Shown here: positions 3,089 through 63,094 of the stretch, in pieces
Layout of the letters: each line of letters opens with the position of its first letter
How positions within the stretch are numbered: the first letter of the stretch is position 1
Position numbers and translations under genes: made by a program
Assembly: GCF_003545695.1 (NCBI RefSeq)
Contig: NZ_QUZZ01000009.1
Coordinates: 124,001-188,000 of the forward strand
Source of the DNA: Taibaiella helva
GTDB lineage: Bacteria > Bacteroidota > Bacteroidia > Chitinophagales > Chitinophagaceae
DNA: 64,000 nucleotides
Direction of reading: 5' to 3'
The notes under the pieces: model-generated
What the model was told of the DNA's origin: nothing
Database searches by the model: none
Seen by the model: the letters and a program-made list of their open reading frames with translations, nothing else

Positions 3089-6000
3089 ATGGAGAAAAAA
3101 AATCTTTACAACAGCTGTACTGAAGTGATCAATGGTAAAGGAGGAGGCAGACTTGCTAGGGCTATAGTAAGGCATATCTCGCTGGGCTTCTTTTTGGCTT
3201 ATGCTCATCTGGCCGGAGCGCAGCTTTCTCCGATGGACAGCTTTTTCTTCAATCAGAATTTTACAGATCCGGCTTACAGTTATGATACAAGCCATCCCTA
3301 TATATTTCAAATGCAGCCGGTTGTTTCCAAACCGGATCTTTTGAATAGATTGGATTCGCTATTCCCTTTTACAGAAGCCAATTTCTGGGGTTCTTATAAA
3401 AGACTGCAAATAGCCCCCCAGTTCTATTACGATACGGCACTGAACAATAATTATAACTGGTACTATGATAGCCTGGGCTTTGGTTTAGGACAAACCGATC
3501 CCATTATTAATCTGGATTATTCTTTGGATGGCTTTGCCAGGACGACCAGCGCTTTGTATACGCCAGGTACAAATACAGCTACTTCCTGCGAGACTGCCTT
3601 TTTTATTTTTCCCGGCTCGGGGACCAATTGCACGAATCAGGTTGCTACAGGTACAGGCTACCATTCCTTGTTTTGCGATACCAAAAACAATCTGAAACAA
3701 TATGGGGATGTATTTACTTATTGTAAGCCCAATGAAGACTGGCGGGCTATTCTATGGAATGACCGGAAGCTGGCGACCGAAATTGGCTCCGCCTATTTAT
3801 TGAACTATCTTGACGGAACGGGTCACAAATTAGGCGTTAATGCCAACATAGAATTTTTAGCTTTCCTGAAGCTGTTGAAAAGTAAATACAAGAAAGTAGT
3901 GGTGCTCGCGCTCTCCCACGGAGGGCTTAATACCATTATGAGCCTATCCGAAGTTGATGTTGATGGCTATTTGATTTCTGGCGGTTATACGGCGGCTACC
4001 TACCTGGTCCAAAGCCAGATCTTCCTGCAGCAAAAGTATTTCGGGAATACCTATAATCTGCATCCCCCGTCCGTTACGAAGAATAATATTATACATGCTA
4101 ATAGCGAATTTCTGTTTGCTTGGTCGCAGGCAGATGGCCAGGTTGAAAATTCGAATCATTATACGGAAAACTATTTTGGACCGTTACCCAATGTCGCTTA
4201 TTTCTATGCTTTCCCCTTGCACTCTTTCCCCTATTGTTCTGTCATTGATAGTTTTGTACAGAGGGTCCAGCGCAAGCCCAAGCCATTTATAGAGGCGCTT
4301 GATACCGGCTGCACCACTGACAGCATGATCGCCCGTATTACCTTTTGTGGCCAGCCGCCATTCTCGTTTGATGTTTACAGGAACTCGACATTATACAATA
4401 GCTATACTTCAAATACAGATACATTCGACATCACCTTAACGCAGGAAGGTAGCTATAGTGTATCCAACTTATATGATGCTACCGCTGTCCCGGGGTACCG
4501 GAGCGACACCTTGCTGTATGTAAAAGATTCGGCTGTGAACTTTGAGGTTACTTCCCGGTATTTTAATTGTGACAGCAACAATACACAATTGAGGATACAG
4601 CTGAGCGGAACCTCGCCCTGGATTGTAAATTATAATTATAACGGCTCTCTCTACAACGATACCATCCATACAAATACCAGGCAGTATGCGCTGCAAAATG
4701 GGAACATTACCTTTTTGAATGTTACAGACAGCAACACTTGCCATAAAGTGCTGACACAAACCTTTGACATTGCCGATTCGCTGGTTGCTATAGACTCTCT
4801 GCAGCCGCAGTATTCGTGCGACAGCAACAAGATGCAAATTCATGTTGCCGTAGAAGGAAGAGCGCCCTGGACCATCAGCTATAAAAAAAACGGGATAGCC
4901 GCCCAGGTTGTCCTGAATACCAGCGACACCAATCTTTATTTTGATAACGGTCTGTACGAGTTTATTGATGTGACGGATTCCAATTCATGCCATAAAGCAA
5001 TTGGTCAGGTCTTCAATTTTAATGAATCCCCTATCAGCTACGCCTTCCAGTCCCGGTACTTCGATTGCAGTATCAGTAAAACCAGGCTGAATTTTCAGCT
5101 GGGAGGCAGAGCGCCCTGGGTCTTGCATTATTCGAAGAATGGCGTTAGCGACAGTGCTATATTGCCGGCAAGCCCTGCTACCCTGACCGTAGATAATGGC
5201 GATTATCATTTTTATGATGTCCGCGACAGCAACAACTGTGTGCAGGTTATCAATGAGGATTATGGAGTACAGGATAGCCTCCCGCAATTTCAGATCCTGG
5301 CGCAAGCCTACAGCTGCGATTCCAACAGAACGGAAATGATGATACAGCTAAGCGGAAGAGCACCCTGGGTCCTTTACTACAACAAGAACGGAAACAGCGA
5401 CAGCTTTATGCTTAGCGCCAGTCTTGATACCTTATACCTGAATAACGGCAATTATAGTTTTTACCAGCTTAAGGATAGTAATAATTGTACCATCAACCTA
5501 TCCCAGCAGTTTATACTAAACGAACCCCTTGTCGGATATACGTTCCTGTCGCGTTCCTTCGACTGCAGCAGCAGCATGACCAGGCTGAACTTTCAGCTGG
5601 AAGGCAAAGCCCCCTGGGTCCTGCATTATTCAAAGAATGGCATTAGCGATAGTGCTACATTCCTGGCAAGCCCTGCTACGCTGACCGTTGATAATGGCGA
5701 ATATCATTTTTACGCTGTCCGTGACAGTAATAGCTGTATACAGGCGATCAATGAGACCTATTCTGTACACGATAGCCTTCCTCAATTTCAAATAACAGGA
5801 AATGGCTTCTTATGCCTTTTGGGGCAAACCCAGCTCAATTATGCGCTGGCCGGAAGAGCGCCATGGACGCTTTCTTACTTGTCGGGAAGCACGCCCGTAA
5901 CCGTAAATACCAATAGCGTCAATAATTCGCTGTATTTGCTGAACGGGACCTATACTTTCCTTTCGATAGCTGATAGCAACGGATGCGTGCAGCCGATCAA

Positions 6001-58112: not shown

Positions 58113-58430
58113 ATGAACAAATTATACACTTTGCTGGCGGCGACCTTATTGCTGGTCAGTTGTGGCGATGACGACAAAAATGAAGACGTTGTCGGGCAGC
58201 CCAATAAGGACGGCTCTATAGAAACCGTCATCAGCGTTACTCATGCCGACAGCGTCGACCTGCTGACGACTACTCATAAGATATGGGTAAAGGGCGCCCT
58301 CTCCCAAACCTTTGTAACGACCGATACGCTGAAGTCGCTGGGCACCGAGCCTGTTAAAGACGACGACGGCAACACTTTGAGCACAAAGGATAAGAAGAAA
58401 GATTACGAAATCTACATCACGGTAAAATAA
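58113..58430 (+). CDS. Small lipoprotein, unknown function
   Basis: 105 residues from MNKLYTLLAATLLLVSCGDDD. The lipobox LLLVSC gives a lipidated Cys followed by an acidic stretch (GDDDKNED), often a surface-export signal in Bacteroidota. The mature part (SIETVISVTHADSVDLLTTT, KIWVKGALSQTFVTTDTL) is beta-prone and matches nothing I know. Ends 4 bases before the next gene, with which, and the ATP-grasp gene beyond, it forms a compact unit. Confidence 0.75.
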   Translation: MNKLYTLLAATLLLVSCGDDDKNEDVVGQPNKDGSIETVISVTHADSVDLLTTTHKIWVKGALSQTFVTTDTLKSLGTEPVKDDDGNTLSTKDKKKDYEIYITVK

Positions 58431-58434
58431 GGCG

Positions 58435-58779
58435 ATGAAAAAAAGCAAAACGATCACCCTGGTGCTCATTACATCGGCCTTAGCCTCCTGCCATAAAGAG
58501 CAGCAACGCGGCGCCAGCGGCAGTTGGGACGAGAAGAAAGTATACATGCGGTCAGATACTACGGCTTCCTATACCCGCACCCATTACCACTCGGGCGTTG
58601 CCGGCGCCCTGCTCTGGTATTATGCCTTTCGCCCCTATGGCCGTTACAACGGCGGTCGTTACGACCATGCCGGCTATTACAGCGGCGGGCTCGGGCATGA
58701 CGCCAACGTAGGTACCAACAGCACCAAGAATGCCATTATGCGCGGCGGCTTCGGAAGAGGAAGCTCTTCCGTCTCCTGA
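58435..58779 (+). CDS. Small YgiB-like lipoprotein with C-terminal RGGFG
   Basis: 114 residues from MKKSKTITLVLITSALASCH, lipobox ALASC. The mature protein is rich in Gly, Tyr and Arg (FRPYGRYNGGRYDHAGYYSG) and ends NAIMRGGFGRGSSSVS. The RGGFG near the C-terminus, after a Gly-rich stretch, recalls the end of E. coli YgiB (DUF1190), whose gene neighbours the ATP-grasp gene ygiC; here too the next gene is a YgiC-like ATP-grasp protein, 18 bases downstream. This suggests that the ATP-grasp enzyme acts on or with the lipoprotein tail. Overall sequence similarity to YgiB is low. Confidence 0.7.
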   Translation: MKKSKTITLVLITSALASCHKEQQRGASGSWDEKKVYMRSDTTASYTRTHYHSGVAGALLWYYAFRPYGRYNGGRYDHAGYYSGGLGHDANVGTNSTKNAIMRGGFGRGSSSVS

Positions 58780-58797
58780 CCATTAACCCTTGACCCT

Positions 58798-59934
58798 ATG
58801 CAAAGGATCCGGATCACACCCAGGCATAACTGGGAAAAAGCAGTCGAGCAGCTGGGTTTCGGCTTTCATTCCACCAATGTACCTTACTGGGACGAAAGCG
58901 CGTACTACAGCTTCTCCATGGATGAAATACTACAGCTGGAAAGCGCTACGGCAGCTCTTTGGGAGCTATGCCTTAATGCGGTACAGTTCGTTATTGATAC
59001 ACGGCAATATGCCAAATTTCACATACCCGATTGGTTTGTGCCCGAGATCGAGCGCTCCTGGAACGACGACCATCCTTCGATATACGGGCGCTTCGACCTG
59101 GCTTACAACGATCAGGGAGAGATCAAGCTCCTGGAATTTAATGCAGATACGCCGACGAGCCTTTACGAGGCCGCTATCGTGCAATGGTACTGGTTGCAGG
59201 ACTTCGATAAAAACAAAGATCAGTTCAACAGCATTCATGAGAAGCTGGTCGACTACTGGGGCTACCTGAAGCAATATCTACTGCCGGGCAAGCTGCATTT
59301 CACTTGTGTCAAAAGAAGCCTGGAAGACCTGACGACTACGGAGTACCTGCGCGATTGCGCCATACAGGCCGGCATCGATACCCACCTGGTCTTTATCGAC
59401 GATATTGGCTGGGATGATGACCGCAAAGTATTTGCCGACCTGGAAGATGAAGGGATTAAGAACATCTTCAAGCTGTATCCTTATGAATGGATGGTGCAGG
59501 ATGCTTTTGGCAAAAGGATACTGGAAGATCGTAACAAAGCCTTGTGGATAGAACCAGCCTGGCGCATGATCCTTTCCAATAAAGCCATCCTGCCCATACT
59601 CTGGCACCTGTATCCCGGCCATCCGCTCTTGCTGAAAGCCTACTTTGATCAGGGCGACCTGGTCAGCTATGCCCGAAAGCCCATCCTGTCGCGGGAAGGC
59701 GCCAATATATCGCTGGTAAAGCAAGGCCGGCAGCTGCAGCAGACCGGTGGGGAATATGGCGCAGAAGGCTATGTTTACCAGGATCTCTGCGAGCTGCCCG
59801 CTTTCGAGGGCCAATACCCCGTGATCGGTAGCTGGATCATAGGTCAGCAGCCCGCGGGGATAGGGATCAGGGAAAGCGATGGCCTGATCACCAGCAACAC
59901 CAGCCGCTTTATTCCGCATCTCATTCAACCATAA
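58798..59934 (+). CDS. Glutathionylspermidine-synthase-like ATP-grasp protein (YgiC family)
   Basis: 378 residues, the usual length of the YgiC/YjfC group. IKLLEFNADTPTSLYEAAIV near 105-124 is the family signature around the preATP-grasp/ATP-binding fold; WMVQDAFGKRILEDRNKALW near 239 and ARKPILSREGANISLVKQG near 297 (acidic and basic ATP contacts) and IGSWIIGQQPAGIGIRESDG near 342 follow. These enzymes form amide or peptide bonds using ATP; glutathionylspermidine itself is not expected because the amidase domain is missing. Linked to two small lipoprotein genes upstream. Confidence 0.88.
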   Translation: MQRIRITPRHNWEKAVEQLGFGFHSTNVPYWDESAYYSFSMDEILQLESATAALWELCLNAVQFVIDTRQYAKFHIPDWFVPEIERSWNDDHPSIYGRFDLAYNDQGEIKLLEFNADTPTSLYEAAIVQWYWLQDFDKNKDQFNSIHEKLVDYWGYLKQYLLPGKLHFTCVKRSLEDLTTTEYLRDCAIQAGIDTHLVFIDDIGWDDDRKVFADLEDEGIKNIFKLYPYEWMVQDAFGKRILEDRNKALWIEPAWRMILSNKAILPILWHLYPGHPLLLKAYFDQGDLVSYARKPILSREGANISLVKQGRQLQQTGGEYGAEGYVYQDLCELPAFEGQYPVIGSWIIGQQPAGIGIRESDGLITSNTSRFIPHLIQP

Positions 59935-60406: not shown

Positions 60407-63094
60407 ATGAGCACGATTAAGCCTTTCCTGAGCCTCAGCGGCCTGGAGCCTCTTATAGTAAGGCCTGAGACCAATTTCATCAACGTAGGAGAGCGCACGA
60501 ATGTAACCGGCTCCAAGAAGTTTGCCCGGCTGATACGCGAAGAGCAGTATGAAGAAGCCCTGAGCGTGGCCCGCCAGCAAGTGGAAAGCGGCGCCCAGGT
60601 GCTCGATATCAACATGGACGATGCCTTGCTCGACGGGATAAAGGCCATGACCACCTTCGTCAACCTGGTGCAGAGCGAGCCCGACATCGCGCGTATCCCC
60701 ATCATGCTGGATTCTTCTAAGTTCGAAATTATCCGGGCCGGGCTGAAATGTATCCAGGGAAAGTGTATCGTGAACTCTATCTCGATGAAAGAGGGAGAGG
60801 AAAAGTTCATTAAAGAAGCCCGTATCTGCAGGGCCTTCGGCGCAGCCGTTATTGTAATGGCTTTCGACGAGGTGGGCCAGGCCGACACGAAAGACCGCAA
60901 AGTGGAGATCTGCCACAGGGCCTACAAGATACTGACGGAGCAGGTAGGCTTTCCGCCCCAGGACATTATTTTCGACCCCAATATATTCGCCGTGGCGACC
61001 GGTATCGAAGAGCATAACAACTATGCTGTCGACTTTATCGAAGCTACGCGCGAGATCAAGCGGCTGATGCCCCTGGCCAAAGTCAGCGGCGGCGTCAGCA
61101 ATGTATCCTTCTCTTTCCGCGGCAACGATCACGTGCGGGAAGCCATACACAGTGTTTTCCTTTACCATGCCATTAAAGCGGGCATGGATATGGGTATCGT
61201 GAATGCCGGGCAGCTGGTGGTCTACGATGAGATAGAGCCGCAGCTGCGACAGCTGTGTGAAGATGTGCTGCTGAACCGGAACAATGAAAACAACGAGGCG
61301 ACGGAAGCGCTTATCGCTTTTGCCGAGACGGTAAAGGCCAAAGGCAAAGAGATCGTAAAGGATGAGACCTGGCGCAAGTCGTCTGTGGAAGAGCGGCTGA
61401 AACACTCGCTGGTCAATGGTATTACCGATTATATCGACGAAGATACCGAAGAAGCCCGCGTTAAATATGACAAGCCGCTGCAGGTGATCGAAGGTCCGCT
61501 GATGGACGGCATGAATGTCGTAGGCGACCTCTTCGGCAGCGGTAAGATGTTCCTGCCTCAAGTGGTGAAAAGCGCCAGGGTAATGAAGAAGAGTGTGGCT
61601 TACCTGCTGCCCTTCATCGAGCAGGAGAAGCTGGATAATCCCAATGCGCAGCAGGGCGGCGCCGCCAGGATACTGATGGCTACTGTAAAGGGCGATGTAC
61701 ACGATATCGGCAAGAACATCGTCGGCGTGGTGCTTGGCTGTAATGGCTACGACATTATCGACCTGGGTGTAATGGTACCTGCTGATAAAATACTGGATGA
61801 GGCGGAAAAGCATAAGGCTGATATTATCGGCCTCAGCGGCCTCATTACCCCTTCGCTGGATGAAATGGTGCACGTGGCGGCAGAAATGAGCCGCCGTGGT
61901 ATGAAGCAGCCCCTGCTTATCGGTGGCGCTACCACTTCGCGCATGCATACAGCGGTAAAGATTGCGCCCGGCTATGAGCATGGTGTGATCCACGTGCTGG
62001 ACGCCTCGCGCAGCGTTACCGTTGCCGGCCAGCTGCTGAGCGAGCAAACCAAAGCCGGCTTCCTGGGCGGCATAAAAGAAGAGTACGAGCAATTGCGGGA
62101 AGATTTCAACAGCAAGCGTTCAGTAAAGCAGTACATCAGCTACGAAGAGGCTGCAGCTAACCGCATGCCCATCGACTGGAGCACCTTTAGCCCGGTTAAA
62201 CCTTCGTTCACGGGGCCAAAGGTGCTGCGCCATGTAGACCTGAACGAAATAAGGCCTTATATCGACTGGACGCCCTTCTTTATTTCATGGGAAATGAAAG
62301 GGAAGTTCCCGGCCATCCTCAGCGACGAGCATGCCGGTAAGGAAGCCACCCGGCTGTACAACGATGCCAATGCTATGCTGGATACCATCATTGCAGAAAA
62401 CTGGCTGCAGGCACATGGTGTAGTCGGCTTCTGGCCGGCGGCGGCAACAGGCCCCGATACCATTACGTTGTACAAGGAAGATGGCAGCGAGCTGGAACGC
62501 CTGGAAATGCTGCGGCAACAGATCAAGAAAGCAGCGGGGCAGCCGAGCTTCTCGCTCGCTGATTTTGTGAAGCCCGCGCGGCAGCCGGAAGATTATATGG
62601 GGGCATTTGCCGTAAGCATTGCCGGTATTGAGCCTCATATTAAGCGATTTAACGAAGCCCTCGATGACTACAACAAGATATTGCTGCAGGCCCTGGCCGA
62701 CCGGCTGGTCGAGGCCTTTGCCGAGTACCTGCACCTGAAGGTGCGTAAGGAATACTGGGGTTATGCCAAAGATGAGGCGCTGGGGCAGGAGGCGCTGATC
62801 AAAGAGACTTACCAGGGCATACGACCCGCGCCGGGCTACCCGGCCTGTCCCGACCATACGGAAAAGAACAAGCTGTTTGCGTTGATGCAGGTGAAGGAGA
62901 ATACAGGTATCGAGCTTACCGAGCACCTGGCCATGTACCCGGCCGCTTCGGTGTGCGGCTGGTACTTCTCCCATCCGCAAAGCATTTATTTCGGCGTCGG
63001 TAAGATCAATGAAGACCAGTTCCAGGATTACCTGTCGCGGAAAGGCATGCCTGAAGCCGGTTTGCGGAAATGGCTGCAGCAGAACATGGAGTAA
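60407..63094 (+). CDS. metH: Cobalamin-dependent methionine synthase lacking the homocysteine domain
   Basis: 895 residues. It begins directly with the pterin-binding domain ([20 protein letters not shown] near 24, then [13 protein letters not shown]), followed by the cobalamin cap and the B12 domain ([20 protein letters not shown] near 426-445, whose His ligates cobalt, then [13 protein letters not shown]), and the activation domain ([16 protein letters not shown] near 803). The N-terminal zinc-dependent homocysteine methyltransferase domain of full-length MetH (about 350 residues) is missing. Many Bacteroidota encode that part as a separate gene, usually adjacent; it is not in this window. 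The methyl transfer from methyltetrahydrofolate to cobalamin should still work. Confidence 0.95.

Follow-up and report, generated by a model that had tools for sequence, protein, structure and literature searches.

GspSA and trypanothione synthetase are enzymes that join an acid to a polyamine, with free glutathione as substrate. In GspSA, a sister of the ligase described here, glutathione is amidated at its small C-terminal residue, glycine. For YgiC and YjfC of E. coli, structures and an activity name are available, but to our knowledge no natural substrate is known. Both carry the RefSeq product name peptide-spermidine ligase, which is also how they appear in the title of Pederick 2023, and in a passage of another paper they are termed peptidylpolyamine synthetases (PMC12568646). 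A further passage, citing Sui 2012, describes YgiC as being without glutathionylspermidine synthase activity (PMC12506659).

An arrangement similar to that of the E. coli genes can be found in Taibaiella helva, in a stretch of 64,000 nucleotides (the window). Here two genes for small predicted lipoproteins, LP1 and LP2, are followed by a ligase gene (Table 1). All three lie on the forward strand, separated by gaps of 4 and 18 bases, as the earlier note on this DNA had read them. As in the pairs YgiB-YgiC and YjfM-YjfC, a lipoprotein with RGGFG or RGGYG near its C-terminus stands directly upstream of a PF03738 ligase. The signal peptides of LP1 and LP2, judged by eye, are of the lipoprotein type, and none is visible in the ligase. 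On the 5' side the three genes adjoin a semialdehyde-dehydrogenase-family gene, and on the 3' side a glyoxalase-family gene and a B12-dependent methionine synthase. In the latter (60407-63094, 895 aa) Pfam recognizes pterin-binding, B12-binding and activation domains, and finds no homocysteine-methyltransferase domain. DUF350, PspA and DUF2491 are absent among the window neighbours scanned with Pfam.

Table 1. Features of the lipoprotein-ligase locus, in window coordinates.
Feature	Position	Strand	Description
LP1	58113-58430	+	105 aa, predicted lipoprotein, lipobox LVSC
LP2	58435-58779	+	114 aa, predicted lipoprotein, lipobox LASC, RGGFG tail, proposed ligase substrate
RGGFG motif, LP2 residues 103-107	58741-58755	+	proposed docking motif
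C-terminal spacer RGSSSVS of LP2	58756-58776	+	ends at Ser114, proposed modified carboxylate
YgiC-like ATP-grasp ligase	58798-59934	+	378 aa, PF03738 (GSP_synth), no amidase domain
Ligase codon 193 (Ile)	59374-59376	+	column covarying best with F/L of the tail motif

The ligase matches PF03738 over the entire profile (1-371 of 371; 496.9 bits against a gathering threshold of 29.3, E 5.3e-149) and is 46% identical to YgiC and 42% to YjfC. The assignment to the ATP-grasp family of YgiC, first made from the letters of the DNA, is borne out by the full-length match and the identity. A PDB sequence search with the window ligase and a fold search with the model of a related ligase (L098, discussed below) both return YgiC (7uk8/7uka) and YjfC (7uk6/7uk7) as the best hits. 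Identification as GspSA proper was rejected: the NCBIfam equivalog scores 152 bits against a cut-off of 882, and only the GSP_synth domain was found, with no amidase. As a standalone synthetase, the window ligase would fall with the peptide-spermidine ligases YgiC and YjfC, and theirs is the activity predicted for it.

The C-terminal end of LP2 is NAIMRGGFGRGSSSVS, and the protein terminates in MRGGFGRGSSSVS. The earlier note had compared this tail with that of YgiB, and the likeness holds, E. coli K-12 YgiB carrying TVTRGGFGESV... beside ygiC; K-12 YjfM similarly carries TVSRGGYGRSS...GG beside yjfC. LP2 has no sequence match in Pfam (E 1), NCBIfam, PHROG or PDB. Membership of DUF1190 (PF06693) was considered and rejected, as no Pfam family is found at E 1. 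The likeness of LP2 to YgiB is one of tail and position only. In the whole genome, RGGFG is encoded (with CGN or AGR arginine codons) at three sites, one of them LP2. The other two were rejected as further tailed proteins, as they lie in frames of 103 and 73 codons that are not gene-like; one is opposite a 435-aa ORF and the other overlaps a longer ORF in another frame.

How widely tail and ligase occur together can be seen from 107 loci picked by ligase sequence alone, 80 from genome contigs and 27 from viral contigs. The 80 genome loci are the best of at least 585 confirmed relatives by similarity to the window ligase and not a random sample. A tail was called strict when [RK]GG[FYLW]G occurred in the last 45 residues of a protein near the ligase; at the variable position only F or L was seen. 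Strict tails are present at 83 of the 107 loci, that is, at 66 of the 80 genome loci (best 80 of at least 585) and 17 of the 27 from the viral collection. Variant tails, for example HGGFG, RSGFG, RGGAG, SGGFG, RGTFG or KGFG, occur at 15 loci, bringing the count to 98 of 107. Nine loci have no tail. Three of them are cut by contig ends (L067, L097, L102), and two, L100 and L101, have only a degenerate KGAVFG tail; at three genome loci with enough flanking sequence on either side (L035, L042, L045) and one from the viral collection (L111), no tail motif was found near the ligase. The tail protein is directly upstream of the ligase in 87 of the 95 cases collected. Two loci, L112 and L118, have identical tails and are counted twice.

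By the taxa given in the sequence records, the pairing spans about ten phyla. Strict loci come from Bacteroidota, Ignavibacteriales, Actinomycetota, Acidobacteriota, Deltaproteobacteria-type lineages, Alpha- and Betaproteobacteria, as well as from Planctomycetota, Hydrogenedentota, Sumerlaeota, Verrucomicrobiota, Nitrospirota and Gemmatimonadota. A chance origin of the tail was ruled out by two controls. Among 4884 other ORFs of at least 60 aa from the 107 loci, 9 have the motif in their last 45 residues, and 8 of these are tail proteins themselves, in a ligase neighbourhood. Among 83 Gly/Ser-rich ORFs outside the tail set it occurs once, in the second tail protein upstream of the ligase of an Actinomadura locus (L078). 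At that locus two RGGFG-tailed proteins (3769-4407 and 4599-4994) precede one ligase, a layout in which one ligase may serve two substrates.

The bodies of the tail proteins are far less uniform. In a Pfam tally of LP2, YgiB, YjfM and 78 of the 95 tail proteins from the loci (81 sequences in all), 11 match DUF1190 and every other family has one member each; it is therefore the tail, more than the protein body, that is common to the set. A profile comparison of tail alignments is biased, as the two alignments have members in common. According to the earlier note, RGGFG, if conserved beside the ligase in distant phyla, would suggest a substrate or docking site; the note had named absence of the motif beside homologues as evidence to the contrary. 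Such an absence is not what the survey found, and the pairing across phyla supports the proposed reading.

Some further features of these loci can be described. The signal peptide of the tail proteins, M-K-[KR]-S-x-x-[IV]-x-L..., looks conserved across phyla (L012-L118; window 58435-58491); a rough form of the pattern occurs in 41 of the 95 tail proteins, and in 1 of the 36 other ORFs with a lipobox-like sequence. Many tail proteins of Actinomycetota have a long Pro-rich N-terminus in place of a lipoprotein signal. DUF350 membrane proteins adjoin the ligase at L032, L065 and other loci, mostly at position +1; they form blast clusters of 17 and 7 loci, their identity being checked by Pfam for one representative per cluster.

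LP1, for which no Pfam family match was found, is less widespread. Of the 107 loci, 19 have a homologue just upstream of the tail protein, as do 5 related genomes, counting the window's own. All LP1-bearing loci belong to Bacteroidota or to the viral collection, with the exception of one from Ignavibacteriales (L025). The view that LP1 is specific to Bacteroidota thus stands for nearly all loci and fails for that one. As far as the sequences indicate, LP1 would be an addition of the FCB group, and it is probably an accessory lipoprotein of the version found there.

Nine of 99 related genomes have PF03738, and five of these nine also have an LP2-like protein, which was found in no other genome of the 99. 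A divergent tail protein ending RTQGFG... is found in G007. Distant ligases are found in G060, G089 and G098, where the upstream frames end KTGFG...SSGG, RSGYG...SYGG and KSGFG...SSGG respectively, a tail version that can be written [KR][ST]G[FY]G...GG. The distant ligase of G089 adjoins SpeD and a spermidine-synthase domain protein, both recognized by Pfam; for the similar neighbours in G060 and G098 recognition was by eye alone. When genomes were drawn evenly from the phylum (395, including the window's own), 32 had the PF03738 family. Eighteen matches are strong (E <1e-70, the window's included): 6 have strict tails and 10 variant ones, three of which are loose (RGLLG, NAGFG, GRVFG), and for the remaining 2 no tail motif was found within flanks of 1.5 kb. 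At 7 of 12 loci fetched (L157-L162, L164), a very remote PF03738 ligase (E ~1e-13 to 1e-19) is followed downstream by a large ORF that has [KR]P[ST]GFGRVS close to the C-terminus. This is possibly an older version of the pairing.

The pair is also found in phages. A tblastn search of the phage collection with the ligase matched 137 records, among them a few that by their names are bacterial contigs. Eight phage regions were fetched. In seven, the ligase has a lipoprotein-like protein with a GGFG tail in its vicinity, the tail being strict in 6 and variant in 1; in some of them other genes lie between the two. The eighth is DSS3_VP1, whose record stops just after the ligase; an ion-channel gene lies upstream. 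In the T4-like Aeromonas phages phiAS4 (L130) and 44RR2.8t (L131), tail lipoprotein and ligase are near the lysis-inhibition gene rI and also near a gene annotated as a lipoprotein, a Band_7/SPFH match being noted for 44RR2.8t.

The phages bear on the question of whether tail and ligase are neighbours by inheritance only, the tail serving an envelope function and the enzyme polyamine storage, with no direct interaction between them. According to passages of PMC11237479, PspA, DUF350 and ion-channel genes connected with envelope stress are also found in operons like these, which would suit such an explanation. Nevertheless, we consider it very improbable: the pair is kept in diverse phages, in some of them with intervening genes, it spans about ten phyla while the lipoprotein body diverges beyond Pfam recognition, and the five related genomes that encode an LP2-like protein all have the ligase too. 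It is very likely that the ligase recognizes the tail directly.

Evidence on how the tail might be recognized can be sought in predicted structures. The AlphaFold constructs were natural in-frame read-throughs of tail, stop, linker and ligase, with a 50-residue linker and an alignment of 78 rows for L098, and a 7-residue linker and 61 rows for the window. In the L098 model the ligase is confident, and residues 1-32 and 51-101 of tail and linker are below 50 pLDDT. Blocks 31-40 and 41-50 reach means of 71 and 79; RGGFG is at 41-45, and a strand is formed at 39-41. The contact that the earlier note expected is therefore predicted for L098, whereas the window's own construct shows no docking, its lipoprotein residues 1-112 being below 50 pLDDT. 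The short tether of 7 residues may be the cause. Ligase strand 195-199 is longer in the L098 model than in the window model, which as a sign of docking is only a hint.

A second line of evidence comes from tails in which leucine replaces phenylalanine. RGGLG occurs at 15 loci, from Chryseobacterium and from Nocardia, Tsukamurella and relatives. In every one of these 15 pairs the ligase has F or W at the position equivalent to residue 193 of the window ligase; among 87 F-tailed pairs, 7 have F, W or Y there. The count leaves out L061, L073 and L103 (no motif match) and ligases shorter than 330 aa. By mutual information with the F or L of the tail, column 193 ranks first of 378. The F/L test excluded L039 (A) and two Y tails; L054 is A by pattern and F in the tree test. 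Position 193 is likewise F in two more genomes of the phylum whose tails are RGGLG or RGLLG; they are probably of the same clade as Chryseobacterium. On a quick tree the covariation is not significant, there being two independent pairs if only supported branches are used and five if all are, and distant ligases have F at 193 alongside F tails. For both reasons it was rejected as proof of contact, and as a sequence pattern it is suggestive.

The composition of the tail indicates where a ligase might act. All 83 strict tails end in G, S, E, A or T; of 722 other genes, 223 encode such an end. Small C-terminal residues are partly expected, since the tail is Gly/Ser-rich, with G/S/A/T/E making up 74% of spacer-interior residues. 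Leaving the last residue aside, 78 of 84 tails are free of Asp and Glu downstream of the motif, and 72 of 84 are still free of them when the stretch is extended to ten residues ahead of the motif. An acid-amine ligase needs a carboxylate, and the C-terminal one is the only one common to the tails; it is therefore proposed as the site. The ATP-grasp ligases of graspetides, for example, act on side chains. With this precedent, and with 7 of 84 tails ending in Glu and so offering a usable side chain, the ligase might act on an Asp or Glu side chain or at another position of the lipoprotein rather than at the C-terminus. Such a site is improbable, given the 72 tails without Asp or Glu over the longer stretch.

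Alternatively, the tail could serve for docking or regulation only, so that the lipoprotein recruits or senses the ligase, which would make soluble peptide-polyamine conjugates, and is not itself a substrate. YgiC and YjfC are named for activity on peptides, RGGFG contains no carboxylate, and the spacer that follows the motif can be anywhere between 7 and 20 residues long (76 strict tails counted), all of which would agree with pure docking. A C-terminus that is always small or Glu in the strict tails, with almost no further carboxylate after the motif, would however be needless in a pure docking site, and before export would be the only time at which an exported lipoprotein could encounter a cytoplasmic enzyme. 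On these grounds docking alone is rather unlikely. Attachment of a polyamine at the C-terminus of LP2 is somewhat favoured.

The donor may be homospermidine in this organism. No match to SpeD was found in the window genome, nspC has a sub-cutoff match only, and a PF01916 deoxyhypusine-synthase-like gene is present. SpeY, a deoxyhypusine-synthase-type homologue, makes homospermidine in bacteria, as described in a passage of PMC9992855. The presence of the deoxyhypusine-synthase-like gene, with no SpeD match, makes homospermidine the likelier donor here.

Taken together, it is reasonably probable that LP2 and the ligase are a substrate and its enzyme, with docking through RGGFG, a polyamine amide at the C-terminus and subsequent export. 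In the cytoplasm, before export, the ligase would recognize the disordered tail of LP2 via RGGFG. It would then activate the C-terminal carboxylate as an acyl phosphate, in the way that glutathionylspermidine synthetases act on the C-terminal glycine of glutathione, and the activated C-terminus would be joined by an amide to a polyamine, perhaps homospermidine. The capped LP2 would be exported and lipidated, placing a polycationic C-terminus at the envelope. Modification before export must be assumed because no signal peptide is visible in the ligase and the tail is presumably exported.

There is perhaps an even chance that this modification is widespread: in about ten phyla and many phages, dedicated GSPS-like ATP-grasp ligases would attach spermidine or homospermidine to the C-terminal carboxylate of exported proteins tagged by [RK]GG[FL]G. 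If so, YgiB and YjfM would be the physiological substrates of YgiC and YjfC, and many phages would bring their own substrate lipoprotein and ligase, sometimes with a polyamine synthase. C-terminal polyamine conjugation would join lipoprotein biology, and polyamines would be tied to envelope stress operons and phage genomes. The motif common to phyla and phages points to a candidate substrate and to the exact residue. In the open PMC literature, by titles and abstract openings, no link between tail and ligase was found; a shared tail, read as the substrate of the ligase, would be new as far as that literature goes, and an earlier proposal elsewhere is possible.

Several known systems can be compared with this locus. 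GspSA and trypanothione synthetase share the ATP-grasp synthetase fold; GspSA differs by its amidase domain, which is absent from the window ligase. The precursors of graspetides, which are RiPPs, differ in that the tails discussed here are mostly without the acidic core residues needed for side-chain lactone or lactam crosslinks.

The PspA-linked polyamine operons described in parts of Ravi et al. 2024 (PMC11237479) have a GSPS-like ATP-grasp peptide ligase, a DUF1190 lipoprotein and DUF350, and AdoMet decarboxylase and spermidine-synthase contexts are mentioned there too. In those parts, by contrast, the lipoprotein is called metal-chelating, and neither a conserved tail nor a role as substrate appears.

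In the hss-gss clusters, passages of Li et al. 2023 (PMC9992855) note the linkage of the two genes in Motura and beta-proteobacteria and suggest glutathionylhomospermidine as product, whereas a protein substrate is proposed here. In Achromobacter phage Motura, homospermidine synthase, tail lipoprotein, ligase, a small gene and DUF350 follow in a row. Since hss and gss here flank the gene of an RGGFG-tailed lipoprotein, a protein substrate is favoured over glutathionylhomospermidine in this phage.

The closest systems remain the E. coli pairs. YgiB and YjfM belong to DUF1190, whereas LP2 is about half their size and without a DUF1190 match. The window operon has LP1, while yjfM-yjfC instead adjoin DUF350, PspA and DUF2491. 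By its sequence, the locus is of the YgiBC kind, with a shorter lipoprotein that is invisible to Pfam and an extra lipoprotein beside it.
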